From: Lichenicola cladoniae
GTDB lineage: Bacteria > Pseudomonadota > Alphaproteobacteria > Acetobacterales > Acetobacteraceae
Direction: 5' to 3'
Assembly: GCF_013201075.1 (NCBI RefSeq)
Contig: NZ_CP053708.1
Span: 2,423,501-2,487,500 of the forward strand
DNA length: 64,000 nt
The notes under the pieces are model-generated. The model saw only the letters and a program-made list of their open reading frames with translations, made no database searches and was not told the origin of the DNA. The translations under genes were made by a program, and so were the position numbers. Numbering within the stretch: the stretch's first letter is position 1; each line of letters starts with the position of its first letter. Below, piece after piece: positions 6,908 to 12,087 of the stretch.

Positions 6908-8218
6908 TTAACCTGTCTGGCCGCCGAACAGTGCATGCAGCAAGACATACAGCAGCCCTCCGACAAGCGATCCGACCAGCGTGCCGTTGATCCGGACGAA
7001 TTGGAGATCCGGCCCGACCCGCAGCTCCAGCTTCTCGGTGATCGACCGCGTATCCCAGTTTCCGACCACCTGCGCGATAAAACCGGACATCCGGTCACGC
7101 ACCGTCGGCAGCATCTGCGTCGTGATCGCCAGCACGGCCCGGTCGATCCCGGCCCGCACCGCCTGGTCCGTCTCGAGCGCCTGCCCGAGCCGGGCCACGG
7201 CGTCCGACACCAGGCGTCGGACCCAGCTCTCGTCCTGGTCGAGATCGCCCTCGATCACGCCGCGGGTCCGCGCCCATACATCGAGCACCCACAGGCGGAT
7301 GCTCTCATGCGTCACCAGGCCGCGCAGCATCTCGCCGAGATCCCGGCCCCGCTGCGGATCGGTCTCGATCAGGTCGATCTCGTCGCGGATCCAGGCCGTC
7401 ACCGCCTCGCGCAGCTCTGAGTCCCGTGGATCGGTTCGCTCCAGTTCGGTGTTGATGGCGGACAGCACCCGGCTGGCGATCGAGCCGCCGATCGCCCAGC
7501 CCATCAGCCGGCCACCCTGTTCGCGCACCCTGTCCTCGATCAGCTGGTGCAGGTGCGCCTCGCGGCTCTTCAGCAGCAGCCTGATCTGGTCGAGCAGGAA
7601 CGACAGCACCTCCTGATGGCGGTCACCGTCCACCAGTGCCCGCAGCGCACGCGCCACCACCGGCGCCAGCGCGCCGCCGCTCAGCAGTCTCGGCACCAGG
7701 CGCGCGATCAGTTCCTGGGCGCGCCCAGCCTCGAGCCCATCCAGCAGATGCGGCAGGATCTTGGTGGACGCTCCCGAAATGAGGCTCGCCGTGCGCGGGT
7801 CCATCAGCATCCCACGCAGCAGCAGCGGCATGTCCAGCCGGCCCAAGGCGCGCTCGATTTCCGCTTCGGTGAAGACGTGGCTGGCGATGAAGCTCCCGAG
7901 CGCCCGCCCCAACCGTTCCTTCTGGGCCGGCACGATGGCGGTGTGCGGGATCGGCAGCCCGAGCGGATGGCGGAACAAGGCGGTCACCGCGAACCAGTCG
8001 GCCAGACCGCCGACCAGCCCGGCCTTGGCGCTCGCCTGGAGCAGGCCGATCCAGTAGCCATGCCCGAACGCGTAGCTGCCCAGGGTGAAACCCGCCATGA
8101 CCACGAGCAGCCCGGTCGCATGCCGCTTCTGCCGGGCAAGCCCGCGCCTTGCCGCAATATCGGCGTCGCCGGTGATGTTCGGGGAGATTTCCGGAACCGT
8201 GTCCGGCCGTGCAGTCAT
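6908..8218 (-). CDS. DUF445 family membrane protein
   Basis: 436 aa. An N-terminal hydrophobic segment (roughly residues 36-60, GLLVVMAGFTLGSYAFGHGY) is followed by AKAGLVGGLADWFAVTALFRHPLGLPIPHT, the hallmark of the DUF445/YjiN family. A long helical, charged middle region probably lies outside the bilayer, and a second hydrophobic segment ends the protein (GTLVGSLVGGLLYVLLHALF). Function of the family is not established. It sits 100 bases upstream of the suf promoter on the same strand and diverges from the ppc-like gene, so it is likely its own transcription unit. Confidence 0.85.
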   Translation of the reverse strand: MTARPDTVPEISPNITGDADIAARRGLARQKRHATGLLVVMAGFTLGSYAFGHGYWIGLLQASAKAGLVGGLADWFAVTALFRHPLGLPIPHTAIVPAQKERLGRALGSFIASHVFTEAEIERALGRLDMPLLLRGMLMDPRTASLISGASTKILPHLLDGLEAGRAQELIARLVPRLLSGGALAPVVARALRALVDGDRHQEVLSFLLDQIRLLLKSREAHLHQLIEDRVREQGGRLMGWAIGGSIASRVLSAINTELERTDPRDSELREAVTAWIRDEIDLIETDPQRGRDLGEMLRGLVTHESIRLWVLDVWARTRGVIEGDLDQDESWVRRLVSDAVARLGQALETDQAVRAGIDRAVLAITTQMLPTVRDRMSGFIAQVVGNWDTRSITEKLELRVGPDLQFVRINGTLVGSLVGGLLYVLLHALFGGQTG

Positions 8219-8410: not shown

Positions 8411-11233
8411 ATGAACGATCTGCAGCCGCCTCCGGCCGATCCCGTCCACATCCGGCCGCCCGACCAGCGGCTGGACCAGTTGATCGCTCTCGCCGGGCAA
8501 CTCGTGGAGCGCCAGGAGGAAGACCCGTTCGGTAATCCGGTGCTGGCGATCGCGCTGCAGCTGTCGCGCCGCCTGGACGAAGGCAGCCTGAGCATCGAGG
8601 ACATCACCAACCTGGTCTGCCGGCTGCGCGACGATGCCTTCGAGGAGCGCGCTGCCCGCCTCGCCCGCTATGTCGGCCTGGGCGAAGAGCAGGACATGGC
8701 CAACCGCCTTCGCCAGATCGCCGCCCGCCTGATCCGCCCGGACCCGAACGACAGCCCGATCCCGCTCGCCCAGTTCCGGGCCGCGATCCACCGGACCCGG
8801 TTTTCGGCGGTGTTCACCGCACATCCCACATTCGCACTGGCAACCCCGGTCTATGCAGCGTTGGCCGAGACCGCGAGTGGTACCCGCACCCTGCCGGAGG
8901 TGGCTTCTCAGCGCCCCACCACGCCGACCCTGACCGACGAGTTCGATCTTGCCGTCGAGGCGATCCTGCGTGGCCGCAATGCCATCGACAAGCTGAACGC
9001 CGCCCTGCTCGAGGAAGCCGCCGGCTATTGGCCGCAAGCCTGGACCAGCTTGGTGCCACGCCCGCTGACCCTGGCCAGCTGGGTCGGCTACGACACCGAC
9101 GGCCGCACCGATATCGGCTGGTGGGACACGCTGCGGCTGCGGCTGCGCATGAAGCTGCTCCAGCTGCAGCGCCTGCACGATCAGCTCGGACAGGCCGATC
9201 AGCCGCCGGCTCCGATACTCGACCGGGTCGCCGCTGCGATGGTCGCCGTCGAAGCCCAGATCGAGGCAGCGCCCGACCGCGCCGATCCCGAACAGGTCGC
9301 GGCGTTTTCCCGGGTCCTGATCGACCGTCGCGACGAGGCGATCCTGAGCCCGTCCGAACTGGACGATGCCTTCGGCGCTGCGATCGGCAGTGCTTCCGAA
9401 CCCGACCGGCTCACCCTGGCGGTTGCCCGCGCCGGCTTCGTCTCGCATGGCATGGGTGCTGCCCATACCCATGTCCGGTTGAACGCCACCCAGATCCACA
9501 ATGTCGCCCGCCAGCGGCTCGGCATCGAAGATAGCCCCGAGAATCCGGCCCAGCGGCGCGCCCTGCTCACCCAGATCAACGACGTCCTGTCCGAGGTTCA
9601 GCGCATCCCGGTCGATTTCGGCGCCTTGCTGACCGAGCAGGCATCGGCGGCCCGCCTGATGATGACCGTCACCCAGATCATCAAGCACATCGACAGCTCG
9701 AGCCCGATCCGCTTCCTGATCGCCGAGACCGAGAGCGGCTACACACTGCTGGTGGCGCTCTGGCTCGCACGCCTGTTCGGCATCGAGGACAAGATCGAGA
9801 TCTCGCCGCTGTTCGAGACCCGCGATGCTCTCATGCAGGGCTCGCGCATCATCGAGGAGGCGCTGCATTCGCGGCACTATCGTGACTATCTCCGCCGCAC
9901 CGGCAAGCTGTCGCTGCAGTTCGGCTACTCGGATTCCGGCCGCTATGTCGGCCAGCTGGCGGCCACCTACCTGGTCGAGCGCCTCCGCCTGAAGATCGCC
10001 GACCTGCTCGCCAAGCGCGGCATGACCGACGTCGAGATCATCCTGTTCGACACGCACGGCGAAAGCATCGGCCGCGGCGCGCATCCGTTCGCCCTTGCCG
10101 ACCGGCTGGATTATCTGTCGCCATCGCACTCCCGGCAGGCCTTCGGCGAGGCCGGCATCGCCTACCGCGAGGAAGCGGCGTTTCAGGGCGGCGACGGCTA
10201 CTTGCTGTTCGGCACCCAGAAGCTGGCGGACGCGGTCATCAGCACCATCGCCACCCATGCGTTCGCGGTGGTGAAGCCCGAGCGCGATCCGATCTACGAC
10301 GAGCCCGACTTCTCCGCCGACTTCTTCGCAGCCATCGGCCTCGGCATGACCGAGCTGGTCGAGGACCCGGGCTATGCGGGCCTGCTCGGCGCCTTCGGTC
10401 CCGCGTTGATCGACCGTACCGGCTCGCGCCCGGCCGCACGCCAGAGCGACTCCGCCGGCGGACCGGCACGGATACGCCATCCGCGCGAACTGCGCGCGAT
10501 CCCCAACAACGCGATCCTGCAGCAGCTCGGCTGGTGCGCCAACACGCTGCAGGGCCTGGGCCTGGCCGCCGCCCGGCACCCCGAGACGTTCGAGGAGTTC
10601 CTGCTGAAGAGCCCGCGTTTCCGCCGGGCACTCGACTTCGCGTCGCACGCCCTTGCCCATTCCGACCGCGACGTCCTGCGCGCCATCGTGCTGACGCTCG
10701 ATCCCGGGGTTTGGCTCGATCGCGCCGCGCACGAGAATGATCCGGCTCGCCGCAATGCCCTGGTCACCCTGTCAGAAGGGCTGGAACGCCTCGATCTCTG
10801 GGCGATCACCCAGTCGATGTTCCGTCGCATCCAGGCGGATCATCTGGCCCTTCGCGCCGCTTGGCCCGACGCGCCCCGGATGCGCCTGCCGGAGGTGCTG
10901 CTGCACGCGATCCGCCTGACCCTGATCGAGCGGATCTGGCTTCTCTCGACCCGGATTCCCTACTTTTCGCCACGCAACGGCTTCACCAGGGAAGCGCTCG
11001 ACGACCAAGTGCTCCGGCTCGAGATCCCGAACGTGCTGAAGCAGCTCGCCGAGATCTTTCCGCAGGCCTCGGACCAGTCGGTGTTGCTGGACTTCCGCGA
11101 GCAGCCTGGACCACGGTCCGAAAACGCCTACACGCGGGAGAACGCGGAAATTTTCCAGCCGATGCGCCGGCTGTTCGAGCTTGTCCGCGAGGTGAGCGTC
11201 GGCGTCATGCACAATGTCGGTGCATTCGGATAA
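8411..11233 (+). CDS. Divergent phosphoenolpyruvate carboxylase-like protein
   Basis: 940 aa, the length of PEP carboxylases (880-960), which convert PEP and bicarbonate to oxaloacetate. Family marks: FTAHPTFALATPVY, equivalent to the VLTAHPTE block with catalytic His; ISPLFETRDAL, equivalent to PLFETIDDL; GYSDSGRYVG at the place of GYSDSNKDGG; THGESIGRGAHP at the place of FHGRGGSxGRGG; LRAIPNNAILQQLGW at the place of LRAIPWxFxWTQ. The catalytic His and the second Arg of the GRGG loop are kept, but the Lys of GYSDSNKD and the first Arg of the HGRGG loop are not, and the TEQGE block is not recognisable. Start 8411 gives MNDLQPPPADP; the open frame before it is antisense to DUF445. It may be a distinct anaplerotic subfamily or a related protein of other function. 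Confidence 0.75.
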   Translation: MNDLQPPPADPVHIRPPDQRLDQLIALAGQLVERQEEDPFGNPVLAIALQLSRRLDEGSLSIEDITNLVCRLRDDAFEERAARLARYVGLGEEQDMANRLRQIAARLIRPDPNDSPIPLAQFRAAIHRTRFSAVFTAHPTFALATPVYAALAETASGTRTLPEVASQRPTTPTLTDEFDLAVEAILRGRNAIDKLNAALLEEAAGYWPQAWTSLVPRPLTLASWVGYDTDGRTDIGWWDTLRLRLRMKLLQLQRLHDQLGQADQPPAPILDRVAAAMVAVEAQIEAAPDRADPEQVAAFSRVLIDRRDEAILSPSELDDAFGAAIGSASEPDRLTLAVARAGFVSHGMGAAHTHVRLNATQIHNVARQRLGIEDSPENPAQRRALLTQINDVLSEVQRIPVDFGALLTEQASAARLMMTVTQIIKHIDSSSPIRFLIAETESGYTLLVALWLARLFGIEDKIEISPLFETRDALMQGSRIIEEALHSRHYRDYLRRTGKLSLQFGYSDSGRYVGQLAATYLVERLRLKIADLLAKRGMTDVEIILFDTHGESIGRGAHPFALADRLDYLSPSHSRQAFGEAGIAYREEAAFQGGDGYLLFGTQKLADAVISTIATHAFAVVKPERDPIYDEPDFSADFFAAIGLGMTELVEDPGYAGLLGAFGPALIDRTGSRPAARQSDSAGGPARIRHPRELRAIPNNAILQQLGWCANTLQGLGLAAARHPETFEEFLLKSPRFRRALDFASHALAHSDRDVLRAIVLTLDPGVWLDRAAHENDPARRNALVTLSEGLERLDLWAITQSMFRRIQADHLALRAAWPDAPRMRLPEVLLHAIRLTLIERIWLLSTRIPYFSPRNGFTREALDDQVLRLEIPNVLKQLAEIFPQASDQSVLLDFREQPGPRSENAYTRENAEIFQPMRRLFELVREVSVGVMHNVGAFG

Positions 11234-11247
11234 CGCGTTCGCCGCCC

Positions 11248-12087
11248 ATGGCCAGACGACGCGCATGGCGCCTGACCGAACCGCCCCCACCCACGGCGAC
11301 GCCCCTGGTCATACGCCCCGGGATCAGGCGGATCGTCGCCGCGAACCCGGGGCCGATGACCTATCACGGCACCAACACCTGGCTGGTGGACTGGGACGGC
11401 GGCGTCGCGGTGATCGATCCGGGCAGTGACGACGAGAGCCATCTCGACGCCATCATTGCCGAGGCCGGGCCCAGGCTGTCGCATATCCTGCTGACCCATA
11501 CCCACCGCGACCATCTCACCGGCGCCGACACGCTCAGCCGGCGCAGCGGCGCGCCGATCGCTGGCTTCACCCTCAGCGCTGACCCCAATTTCGCGCCTGC
11601 CGTTGCGCTTGCGGACAACACCCGTATCGCCGGGCTGACCGCGCTGCATACGCCCGGGCACGCCATGGATCATCTCTGTTTCGCGCGCGATGACGGGGTG
11701 CTGTTCAGCGGCGACCATGTCATGCCCTGGTCGACCTCGGTGGTGCCGCCGCCGCCGCATGGCGACCTGATCCGCTTCATCGGCAACCTGGAACGGGTCC
11801 GCGATCGCGACGACCGGCTGATGCTGTCCGCGCACGGTCCGGCGATCGAGAATCCGCGTGACCTGGTACAGAGCTTGCTGGATCATCGCACCGCGCGCGA
11901 GGCATCGATCGAAGCCGTGCTTTCGCCGGTGCCGATGCCGTTCGAGGCGGTACTGGCGCGATCCTACATCAACCTGCGCCCCGAACTGCTCTCGCCCGCC
12001 CGTGCGAACCTGCTTTCACATCTCGGAAAGCTCGAGATCGAGGGGCGCGCCGCACTGACCCCGGACGGCTGGCGGGCGACAGGCTGA
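11248..12087 (+). CDS. MBL-fold metallo-hydrolase, LACTB2-like
   Basis: 279 aa. The metallo-beta-lactamase zinc motif THTHRDHLTGA is complete (His84, His86, Asp88, His89), with further ligands in LHTPGHAMDH and LFSGDHVM and the final His in LSAHGPAIENP. NPGPMTYHGTNTWLV near the start and a C-terminal helical/winged part (about residues 210-279) match the LACTB2/RNase-Z-like hydrolase family. Substrate cannot be read from sequence; eukaryotic LACTB2 is an endoribonuclease, while many bacterial members are uncharacterised. The start ATG at 11248 follows the ppc-like stop by 14 bases, suggesting co-transcription. Confidence 0.85.
   Translation: MARRRAWRLTEPPPPTATPLVIRPGIRRIVAANPGPMTYHGTNTWLVDWDGGVAVIDPGSDDESHLDAIIAEAGPRLSHILLTHTHRDHLTGADTLSRRSGAPIAGFTLSADPNFAPAVALADNTRIAGLTALHTPGHAMDHLCFARDDGVLFSGDHVMPWSTSVVPPPPHGDLIRFIGNLERVRDRDDRLMLSAHGPAIENPRDLVQSLLDHRTAREASIEAVLSPVPMPFEAVLARSYINLRPELLSPARANLLSHLGKLEIEGRAALTPDGWRATG

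Follow-up and report, generated by a model that had tools for sequence, protein, structure and literature searches.

The locus and its protein

The 64,000-nucleotide stretch of the Lichenicola cladoniae genome analysed here (Acetobacteraceae; contig NZ_CP053708.1, positions 2,423,501 to 2,487,500; hereafter the window) carries a gene for a divergent relative of phosphoenolpyruvate (PEP) carboxylase (PEPC), the enzyme that adds bicarbonate to PEP to yield oxaloacetate and phosphate (EC 4.1.1.31). The open reading frame (ORF) is intact and encodes 940 amino acids (Table 1). The profile search proposed in the initial annotation gave a match to PF00311 above the Pfam gathering cut-off (57.7 bits versus 22.4; E = 7.5e-16) that is confined to residues 417–559, and scores stayed below the NCBIfam cut-offs for the PEPC equivalog PRK00009 (68.6 versus 815) and for archaeal-type PEPC (TIGR02751; 14.9 bits versus 146.05). 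Among the 14 phmmer matches to Protein Data Bank (PDB) sequences with E values up to 1, 12 are PEPCs, the best being the Escherichia coli enzyme (1fiy, 6.9e-9); the other two are weak matches to proteases (0.049).

Table 1 Features of the PEPC-like gene and its neighbours (window coordinates)
Feature	Position	Strand	Basis or conservation
Divergent PEP carboxylase gene (940 amino acids, stop included)	8411..11233	+	ORF (ATG at 8411, stop ends at 11233), PF00311 match, structural match
TAHPTF motif, His138 (number identical to E. coli catalytic His138)	8816..8833	+	His 103/103; T[AG]HPTF 152/155
Arg356 = E. coli Arg396	9476..9478	+	103/103
Glu469 in PLFET = E. coli Glu506 (presumed metal ligand)	9815..9817	+	103/103
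GYSDSGR: Asp508 = Asp543 (presumed metal ligand); Arg511 in place of Lys546	9923..9943	+	103/103 for both
THGESIGRG loop: His549 for Arg581, Glu551 for Gly583, Arg555 = Arg587	10052..10078	+	103, 102 and 103 of 103
FQGGDGY, a segment of the subfamily close to canonical TEQGE (register uncertain)	10181..10201	+	Alignment; QGGDGY 110/155
GSR: Arg673 = Arg699	10421..10429	+	103/103
RAIPNNAILQQ: Arg695 = Arg713; remainder of RAIPW.F.WTQ replaced	10493..10525	+	Arg 103/103
C-terminal GAFG: Ala938 for Asn881, C-terminal Gly kept	11219..11230	+	Ala 94/103, Gly 103/103
Metallo-beta-lactamase-fold (MBL) hydrolase gene	11248..12087	+	Start taken to be the ATG 14 nucleotides after the PEPC-like stop
DUF445 gene, divergent from the PEPC-like gene	6908..8218	-	Kept alongside in many close relatives

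The likeness to PEPC over the whole length, which had been proposed by eye, is borne out by the predicted structure. An AlphaFold2 model built with 39 sequences has a mean predicted local distance difference test score (pLDDT) of 87.9 and a predicted template-modelling score of 0.90, with pLDDT below 50 at residues 1–14, 225–233, 676–683 and 938–940. Of 60 Foldseek matches (E up to 0.001), the 50 listed are all PEPCs. VIA-align superposes the model on maize PEPC (5vyj; Z 28.4, 760 residues aligned, 4.1 Å, spanning residues 12–940) and on E. coli PEPC (1jqn; Z 27.9, 749 aligned, 4.6 Å, spanning residues 6–939), at 15% identity to 1jqn over the structural alignment. The archaeal-type PEPC 3odm scores lower (Z 15.9, 469 aligned), and other barrels and non-PEPC folds reach at most 12.4. 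In the model, the fold of bacterial/plant PEPC (bpPEPC), the type of E. coli Ppc and PF00311, is predicted across the whole chain.

The ratio of non-synonymous to synonymous substitution rates (dN/dS) is 0.19–0.21 in the three usable pairs that include the window gene, as under purifying selection. It is 0.25–0.33 for three pairs of related loci (L003–L004, L003–L006 and L004–L006), in which the local alignments may extend past the gene start; four comparisons involving L005, with 37 to 185 codons aligned in a wrong frame, were excluded. An intact, conserved reading frame under purifying selection speaks against a pseudogene or a sequencing artefact, and we rejected both explanations. The second, canonical ppc that the initial annotation had proposed to look for did not turn up: no other PF00311 match was found in the 6.06-Mb host genome. 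That genome encodes the PEPC-like protein and ATP-dependent PEP carboxykinase (ATP-PEPCK) and has no canonical PEPC, nor do pyruvate carboxylase or isocitrate lyase exceed their cut-offs there.

Replaced active-site residues

From 189 collected proteins (155 distinct), we drew 103 representatives, the window protein included, leaving out sequences shorter than 850 residues and near-duplicates, and aligned them with 16 canonical PEPCs using MAFFT; columns are numbered by E. coli Ppc, and motif counts refer to all 155 distinct sequences, fragments included. The catalytic roles that we attach to E. coli residue numbers are assumed, as is the numbering of Glu506 and Asp543 as the metal ligands. 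The features by which bpPEPC is recognized are partly present: Glu506 and Asp543, His138, and the four arginines Arg396, Arg587, Arg699 and Arg713 are kept in all 103 representatives. According to the available portion of a review, the metal of PEPC is held by a glutamate and an aspartate (PMC10176493).

Other positions are replaced just as consistently. All 103 representatives have Arg in place of Lys546 (Arg511 in the window protein) and His in place of Arg581 (His549), and 102 have Glu in place of Gly583 (Glu551). At position 579, 89 of them have Asp (Asp547 in the window protein), 13 Asn and one Ser; Lys546, His579 and Arg581 are each present in 16 of 16 canonical rows. The subfamily thus has neither the Lys546 expected of bpPEPC nor its GRGGSxGRGG loop, which includes His579 and Arg581. 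By homology it is a member of the PEPC family, but these three residues place it outside the strict canonical definition. Its own motifs are widespread: T[AG]HPTF occurs in 152 of the 155 distinct sequences, PLFET in 154, SD[SA]GR in 155, THGESxGRG in 153, GSR in 155, RAIP in 151 and QGGDGY in 110.

The initial annotation had recognized a PEPC-like protein with non-canonical active-site residues from the window sequence, and its quoted motifs, GYSDSGRYVG at residues 505–514 and THGESIGRGAHP at 548–559, stand as given. It had described the lysine and the first arginine of these motifs as lost; the arginine is indeed replaced, by histidine, but the lysine is exchanged for arginine, and the second arginine (Arg587, Arg555 in the window protein) is kept. 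Similarly, only part of the RAIPWxFxWTQ block is replaced: RAIP, with the equivalent of Arg713, is retained, and RAIPNNAILQQLG follows it instead of the canonical continuation. A claim on E. coli Lys620 was abandoned owing to an ambiguous alignment register.

Presumably, Lys546 of E. coli Ppc corresponds to Lys600 of the C4 PEPC of Flaveria. In the latter enzyme, the accessible part of a report describes Lys600 as one of four bicarbonate-site residues and its exchange for Arg or Thr as raising the Km for both PEP and bicarbonate (PMC6363079).

Phylogeny and spread

A quick maximum-likelihood tree was built from 54 subfamily rows and the 16 canonical ones, 70 in total. In it, one very long branch divides the two sets, with a Shimodaira–Hasegawa-like approximate likelihood-ratio test (SH-aLRT) value of 100; the subfamily is monophyletic relative to the 16 canonical PEPCs used. 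In a sample from the class of the window, 45 of 289 genomes have strong matches (E of 7e-103 or better) and 22 further genomes have weak matches alone, which we read as the kind of match that canonical PEPC gives. A phylum-wide sample gave matches at E 1e-30 in 17 of 299 genomes, all within the same class. A scan with organism names gave at least 586 relatives, of which the best 80 include Methylobacterium, Methylorubrum, Bosea, Roseococcus and Paraburkholderia. Copies from Paraburkholderia and Burkholderia are nested among Acetobacteraceae sequences in the tree, which suggests transfer of the gene; given that the phylum-wide matches are confined to one class, these copies are exceptions missed by that sample. 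Two sequences with unexpected labels, L146 (Solirubrobacterales, Actinomycetota) and L134 (Nitrosovibrio), also fall among the Acetobacteraceae and probably represent mis-binned contigs or recent transfer (L numbers denote loci of relatives, G numbers genomes and g numbers genera).

We searched the host genomes of 20 of those 80 loci; 11 have the subfamily type only and 9 have a second PEPC that scores as canonical. These companions come from six Methylobacterium or Methylorubrum genomes (779–796 bits), one Methylopila (795) and two Paraburkholderia (1085 and 1102), and the two types occur together in all six Methylobacterium or Methylorubrum genomes searched (G435–G440).

Inhibitor site

The initial annotation had suggested that regulation might differ, and the regulatory site of the subfamily does look changed relative to that of E. 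coli. Ala takes the place of Asn881 in 94 of the 103 representatives, and Lys is absent from the five commonest subfamily residues at position 773. Ala at Asn881 also occurs in 7 of the 16 canonical-side rows, and the inhibitor residues Lys773 and Asn881 are each kept in just 6 of those 16. Because the register at Arg832 is uncertain, altered regulation is something that we infer. Together, Ala in place of Asn881 and the absence of Lys773 would leave weak or no sensitivity to aspartate.

By organism, we take the rows L180 and L182–L186 (Methylobacterium and Methylorubrum) and L181 (Methylopila) to be serine-cycle enzymes. The subfamily might simply be this unregulated PEPC class, known from methylotrophs, to which the shared alanine at Asn881 could point. 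The serine-cycle Ppc1 of Methylosinus trichosporium has likewise lost two inhibitor residues, which the available text of that study reads as a sign of alternate inhibitors or of insensitivity to aspartate and malate (PMC3615186). However, the second PEPCs of Methylobacterium and Methylorubrum keep Lys546, Arg581 and His579 and are placed on the canonical side of the tree (SH-aLRT 100), not within the subfamily, which makes this identity extremely unlikely.

Complementary gene content in the order

To place the protein among alternative enzymes, we searched for each in 150 genomes sampled from the order of the window (41 genera, all in the family of the window). The PEPC-like protein is present in 132 genomes and a PF00311 match of any kind in 133, whereas canonical PEPC (at least 779 bits) is present in 6; 129 of the 132 have no canonical PEPC match. 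Full-length pyruvate carboxylase exceeds its cut-off in 4 of the 150 genomes, isocitrate lyase in 50 and ATP-PEPCK in 68. Among 14 control genomes, the over-cut-off counts are 7 for PEPC, 3 for pyruvate carboxylase, 5 for isocitrate lyase and 5 for PEPCK.

Canonical PEPC is present in 3 of the 18 genomes that lack the PEPC-like protein and pyruvate carboxylase in another 3, so that 6 of these 18 have one or the other, versus 4 of the 132 with the protein (Fisher's exact test, P = 2.0e-4). Conversely, four alternatives (canonical PEPC, pyruvate carboxylase, isocitrate lyase and ATP-PEPCK) are all missing from 63 of the 132 genomes that encode the protein, compared with 1 of the 18 that do not (P = 5.7e-4). 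The distribution is complementary to those of canonical PEPC and pyruvate carboxylase. Replacements recur in three genera: in g10, the sole sampled genome without the PEPC-like protein (G034) is the one with canonical PEPC; g26 includes G068 with pyruvate carboxylase and G149 with canonical PEPC; and g31 includes G087 and G110 with pyruvate carboxylase and G120 with canonical PEPC. The one sampled genome that lacks the PEPC-like protein and in which none of the four alternatives was found, pyruvate carboxylase and isocitrate lyase being judged by their cut-offs, is G069; it has a partial isocitrate lyase match.

These counts bear on whether the protein is a relative of PEPC that has lost catalysis and plays a regulatory or structural role, as the changed equivalents of Lys546 and Arg581 could indicate. 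There is a precedent in the plant bacterial-type PEPC, a subunit that forms a hetero-octamer with plant-type PEPC, as described in the accessible sections of a review (PMC8100219). Such a role is very unlikely here: in 129 of the 132 genomes, no canonical PEPC turned up that it could regulate, and the other active-site residues, like the replacements themselves, are invariant.

Link to measured activity

The source organism of the PDB entries 3a8e and 7zzq is, we assume, Komagataeibacter xylinus. In genome G032 (genus g17), the BcsD protein is identical to that of 7zzq at 105 of 110 positions, on which basis we took G032 to be a xylinus-like Komagataeibacter. BcsD from 6 of 11 loci was compared with the PDB protein; G136 (g35) is identical at 85 of 110 positions, and labelling g15, g18 or g22 as Komagataeibacter was rejected, as their BcsD proteins (G030, G092, G033 and G051) are far more distant. 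G032 encodes the PEPC-like protein, and canonical PEPC, pyruvate carboxylase, isocitrate lyase and ATP-PEPCK were not found in it. For Gluconacetobacter xylinus CGMCC 2955 and its mutant, the available part of a report describes assays of PEPC activity with a commercial NADH-coupled kit (PMC4047042). That the PEPC-like protein is the sole PEPC of G032 is, alongside this activity, a strong hint of PEPC function; it is not proof, because G032 may belong to a species other than that of the assayed strain.

Genomic neighbourhood

The MBL-fold hydrolase gene that follows the PEPC-like gene is possibly co-transcribed with it. The pair and the divergent DUF445 gene are kept in close relatives, and an S10 peptidase gene in fewer; of loci L001–L031, two of which represent the gene in the window itself, L001–L020 have an MBL match and L021–L031 do not. 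Clustering of flanking ORFs, in which calls from GC-rich DNA were noisy and included shadow frames, gave no general neighbourhood common to the whole subfamily.

Some neighbours of distant members fit C3/C4 metabolism around PEP. At L064, an enolase gene lies two genes upstream of the PEPC-like gene. At L065 and L214, sucC/sucD-type CoA-ligase genes lie directly upstream, L214 being only the second such case in 24 loci compared outside L062, L064 and L065; both pairs exceed the succinate-CoA ligase cut-offs. A serine-cycle identity guessed from these genes at L065 was dropped, as Methylobacterium genomes carry both PEPC types. A glyoxylate/hydroxypyruvate (hydroxyacid) reductase-like gene lies downstream at L062, L149 and L157. 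These three Burkholderiaceae loci have a common cluster that also includes genes for 5-oxoprolinase subunit PxpA, a short-chain dehydrogenase/reductase, an amino-acid ABC transporter and gluconokinase, perhaps a horizontally moved catabolic island.

Function of the subfamily

We consider it likely that the protein is an active PEPC, that it represents a deeply diverged class which apparently has no name, and that in most Acetobacteraceae it is the main anaplerotic enzyme for C3-to-C4 carboxylation. Given the invariant metal ligands, His138 and four arginines, the purifying selection, the lack of canonical PEPC in nearly all genomes that encode the protein and the trade-off with other carboxylases, the expectation in the initial annotation that the usual reaction would be impaired finds no support. 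The chemistry is probably ordinary, unlike the residues that perform it. In the mechanism that we propose, Arg511 would take over the role of Lys546 at the bicarbonate site, the PEP phosphate would be surrounded by a loop with His549 and Glu551 instead of the one with Arg581, and the mechanism through carboxyphosphate would stay the same.

Several points weigh against this assignment. Two active-site residues, Lys546 and Arg581, are replaced, and all but one of the 103 representatives have Asp or Asn in place of His579. The Fisher tests treat genomes as independent, with kinship uncorrected, and the enzyme survey leaves out malic enzyme; isocitrate lyase taken alone does not trade off significantly (P = 0.12), and in 6 of the 18 genomes without the protein none of canonical PEPC, pyruvate carboxylase and isocitrate lyase exceeds the cut-off. 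The sucC/sucD pairs at L065 and L214 fall short of the malate-CoA ligase cut-off (501.9 and 550.8 versus 604) and may encode plain succinate-CoA ligase. The 132 positive genomes include broken or partial copies (G025, G144 and G013), of which those of G025 and G144 look interrupted (two pieces, with internal stops in G025). In Acetobacter pasteurianus 386B, the PEPC gene, a candidate member of the class, is annotated as a frameshifted pseudogene in the accessible part of a modelling study (PMC6915089); the breaks in G025 and G144 run parallel to this and may reflect repeated decay or assembly error. The ppc of Gluconobacter oxydans, another candidate member, is lowly expressed and possibly unimportant in the wild type, according to the portion of the source available (PMC6191907).

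The ppc of Methylobacterium extorquens is listed as methylotrophy-specific by mutational analysis, again in the available part of the source (PMC2680597), so the subfamily paralogue of Methylobacterium seems not to cover for it, be it for reasons of expression, kinetics or function; the Methylobacterium and Methylorubrum genomes that we compared include M. populi and M. aminovorans, not M. extorquens. The retention of the protein beside a canonical PEPC that it apparently does not replace is what might be expected if the PEPC fold had been kept for another reaction, for example on a related enol-phosphate, through Arg511, His549 and Glu551, and the class-specific replacements at the active site are invariant or almost so. 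Yet the metal site, His138 and the four arginines are unchanged, and the gene trades off with canonical PEPC and pyruvate carboxylase. The PEPC-like protein is the only PEPC of G032, and such activity is reported from G. xylinus; the L064 copy lies near an enolase gene. We regard a different reaction as unlikely. Also quite unlikely is a new activity in which the Arg511, His549 and Glu551 set would serve a reaction or a rate-limiting step absent from canonical PEPC, whether with another enol-phosphate substrate or through a different making or use of carboxyphosphate.

If the protein is an active PEPC, Lys546, His579 and Arg581 would be dispensable once the loop is rebuilt, despite their presence in every canonical row. 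The subfamily would then offer a natural comparison for dissecting PEPC catalysis and would point to the anaplerotic carboxylase of acetic-acid bacteria, an enzyme that may be free of aspartate feedback.

Comparison with known PEPC types

No paper describing the subfamily was found among the literature matches listed, in a search that subscription journals mostly lay outside, and the four PEPC types distinguished in the accessible sections of a review do not include it (PMC8100219). A genome-scale model of Acetobacter, in the part available, lists the enzyme encoded by a candidate member gene simply as PEPC (PMC6915089).

The closest likeness in length and fold is to bpPEPC, with which the subfamily shares the metal ligands, His138, Arg396, Arg587, Arg699, Arg713 and the C-terminal Gly. 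It differs from that type in having Arg for Lys546, Asp or Asn for His579, His for Arg581 and Glu for Gly583, in the replaced block after RAIP, in the changed inhibitor-site residues and in its low identity to 1jqn. With serine-cycle PEPC (Ppc1/PpcA), it shares the predicted loss of the residues that bind the inhibitors aspartate and malate, whereas the presumed serine-cycle rows are canonical at the active site and fall on the side of E. coli Ppc in the tree. With archaeal-type PEPC (3odm), it shares part of a common fold; that type also lacks inhibitor-binding residues and has subunits of 55–60 kDa, according to the same sections of the review (PMC8100219), in contrast to the 940 residues of the window protein. 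The subfamily is therefore neither the archaeal type nor, from the rows used, the serine-cycle type.

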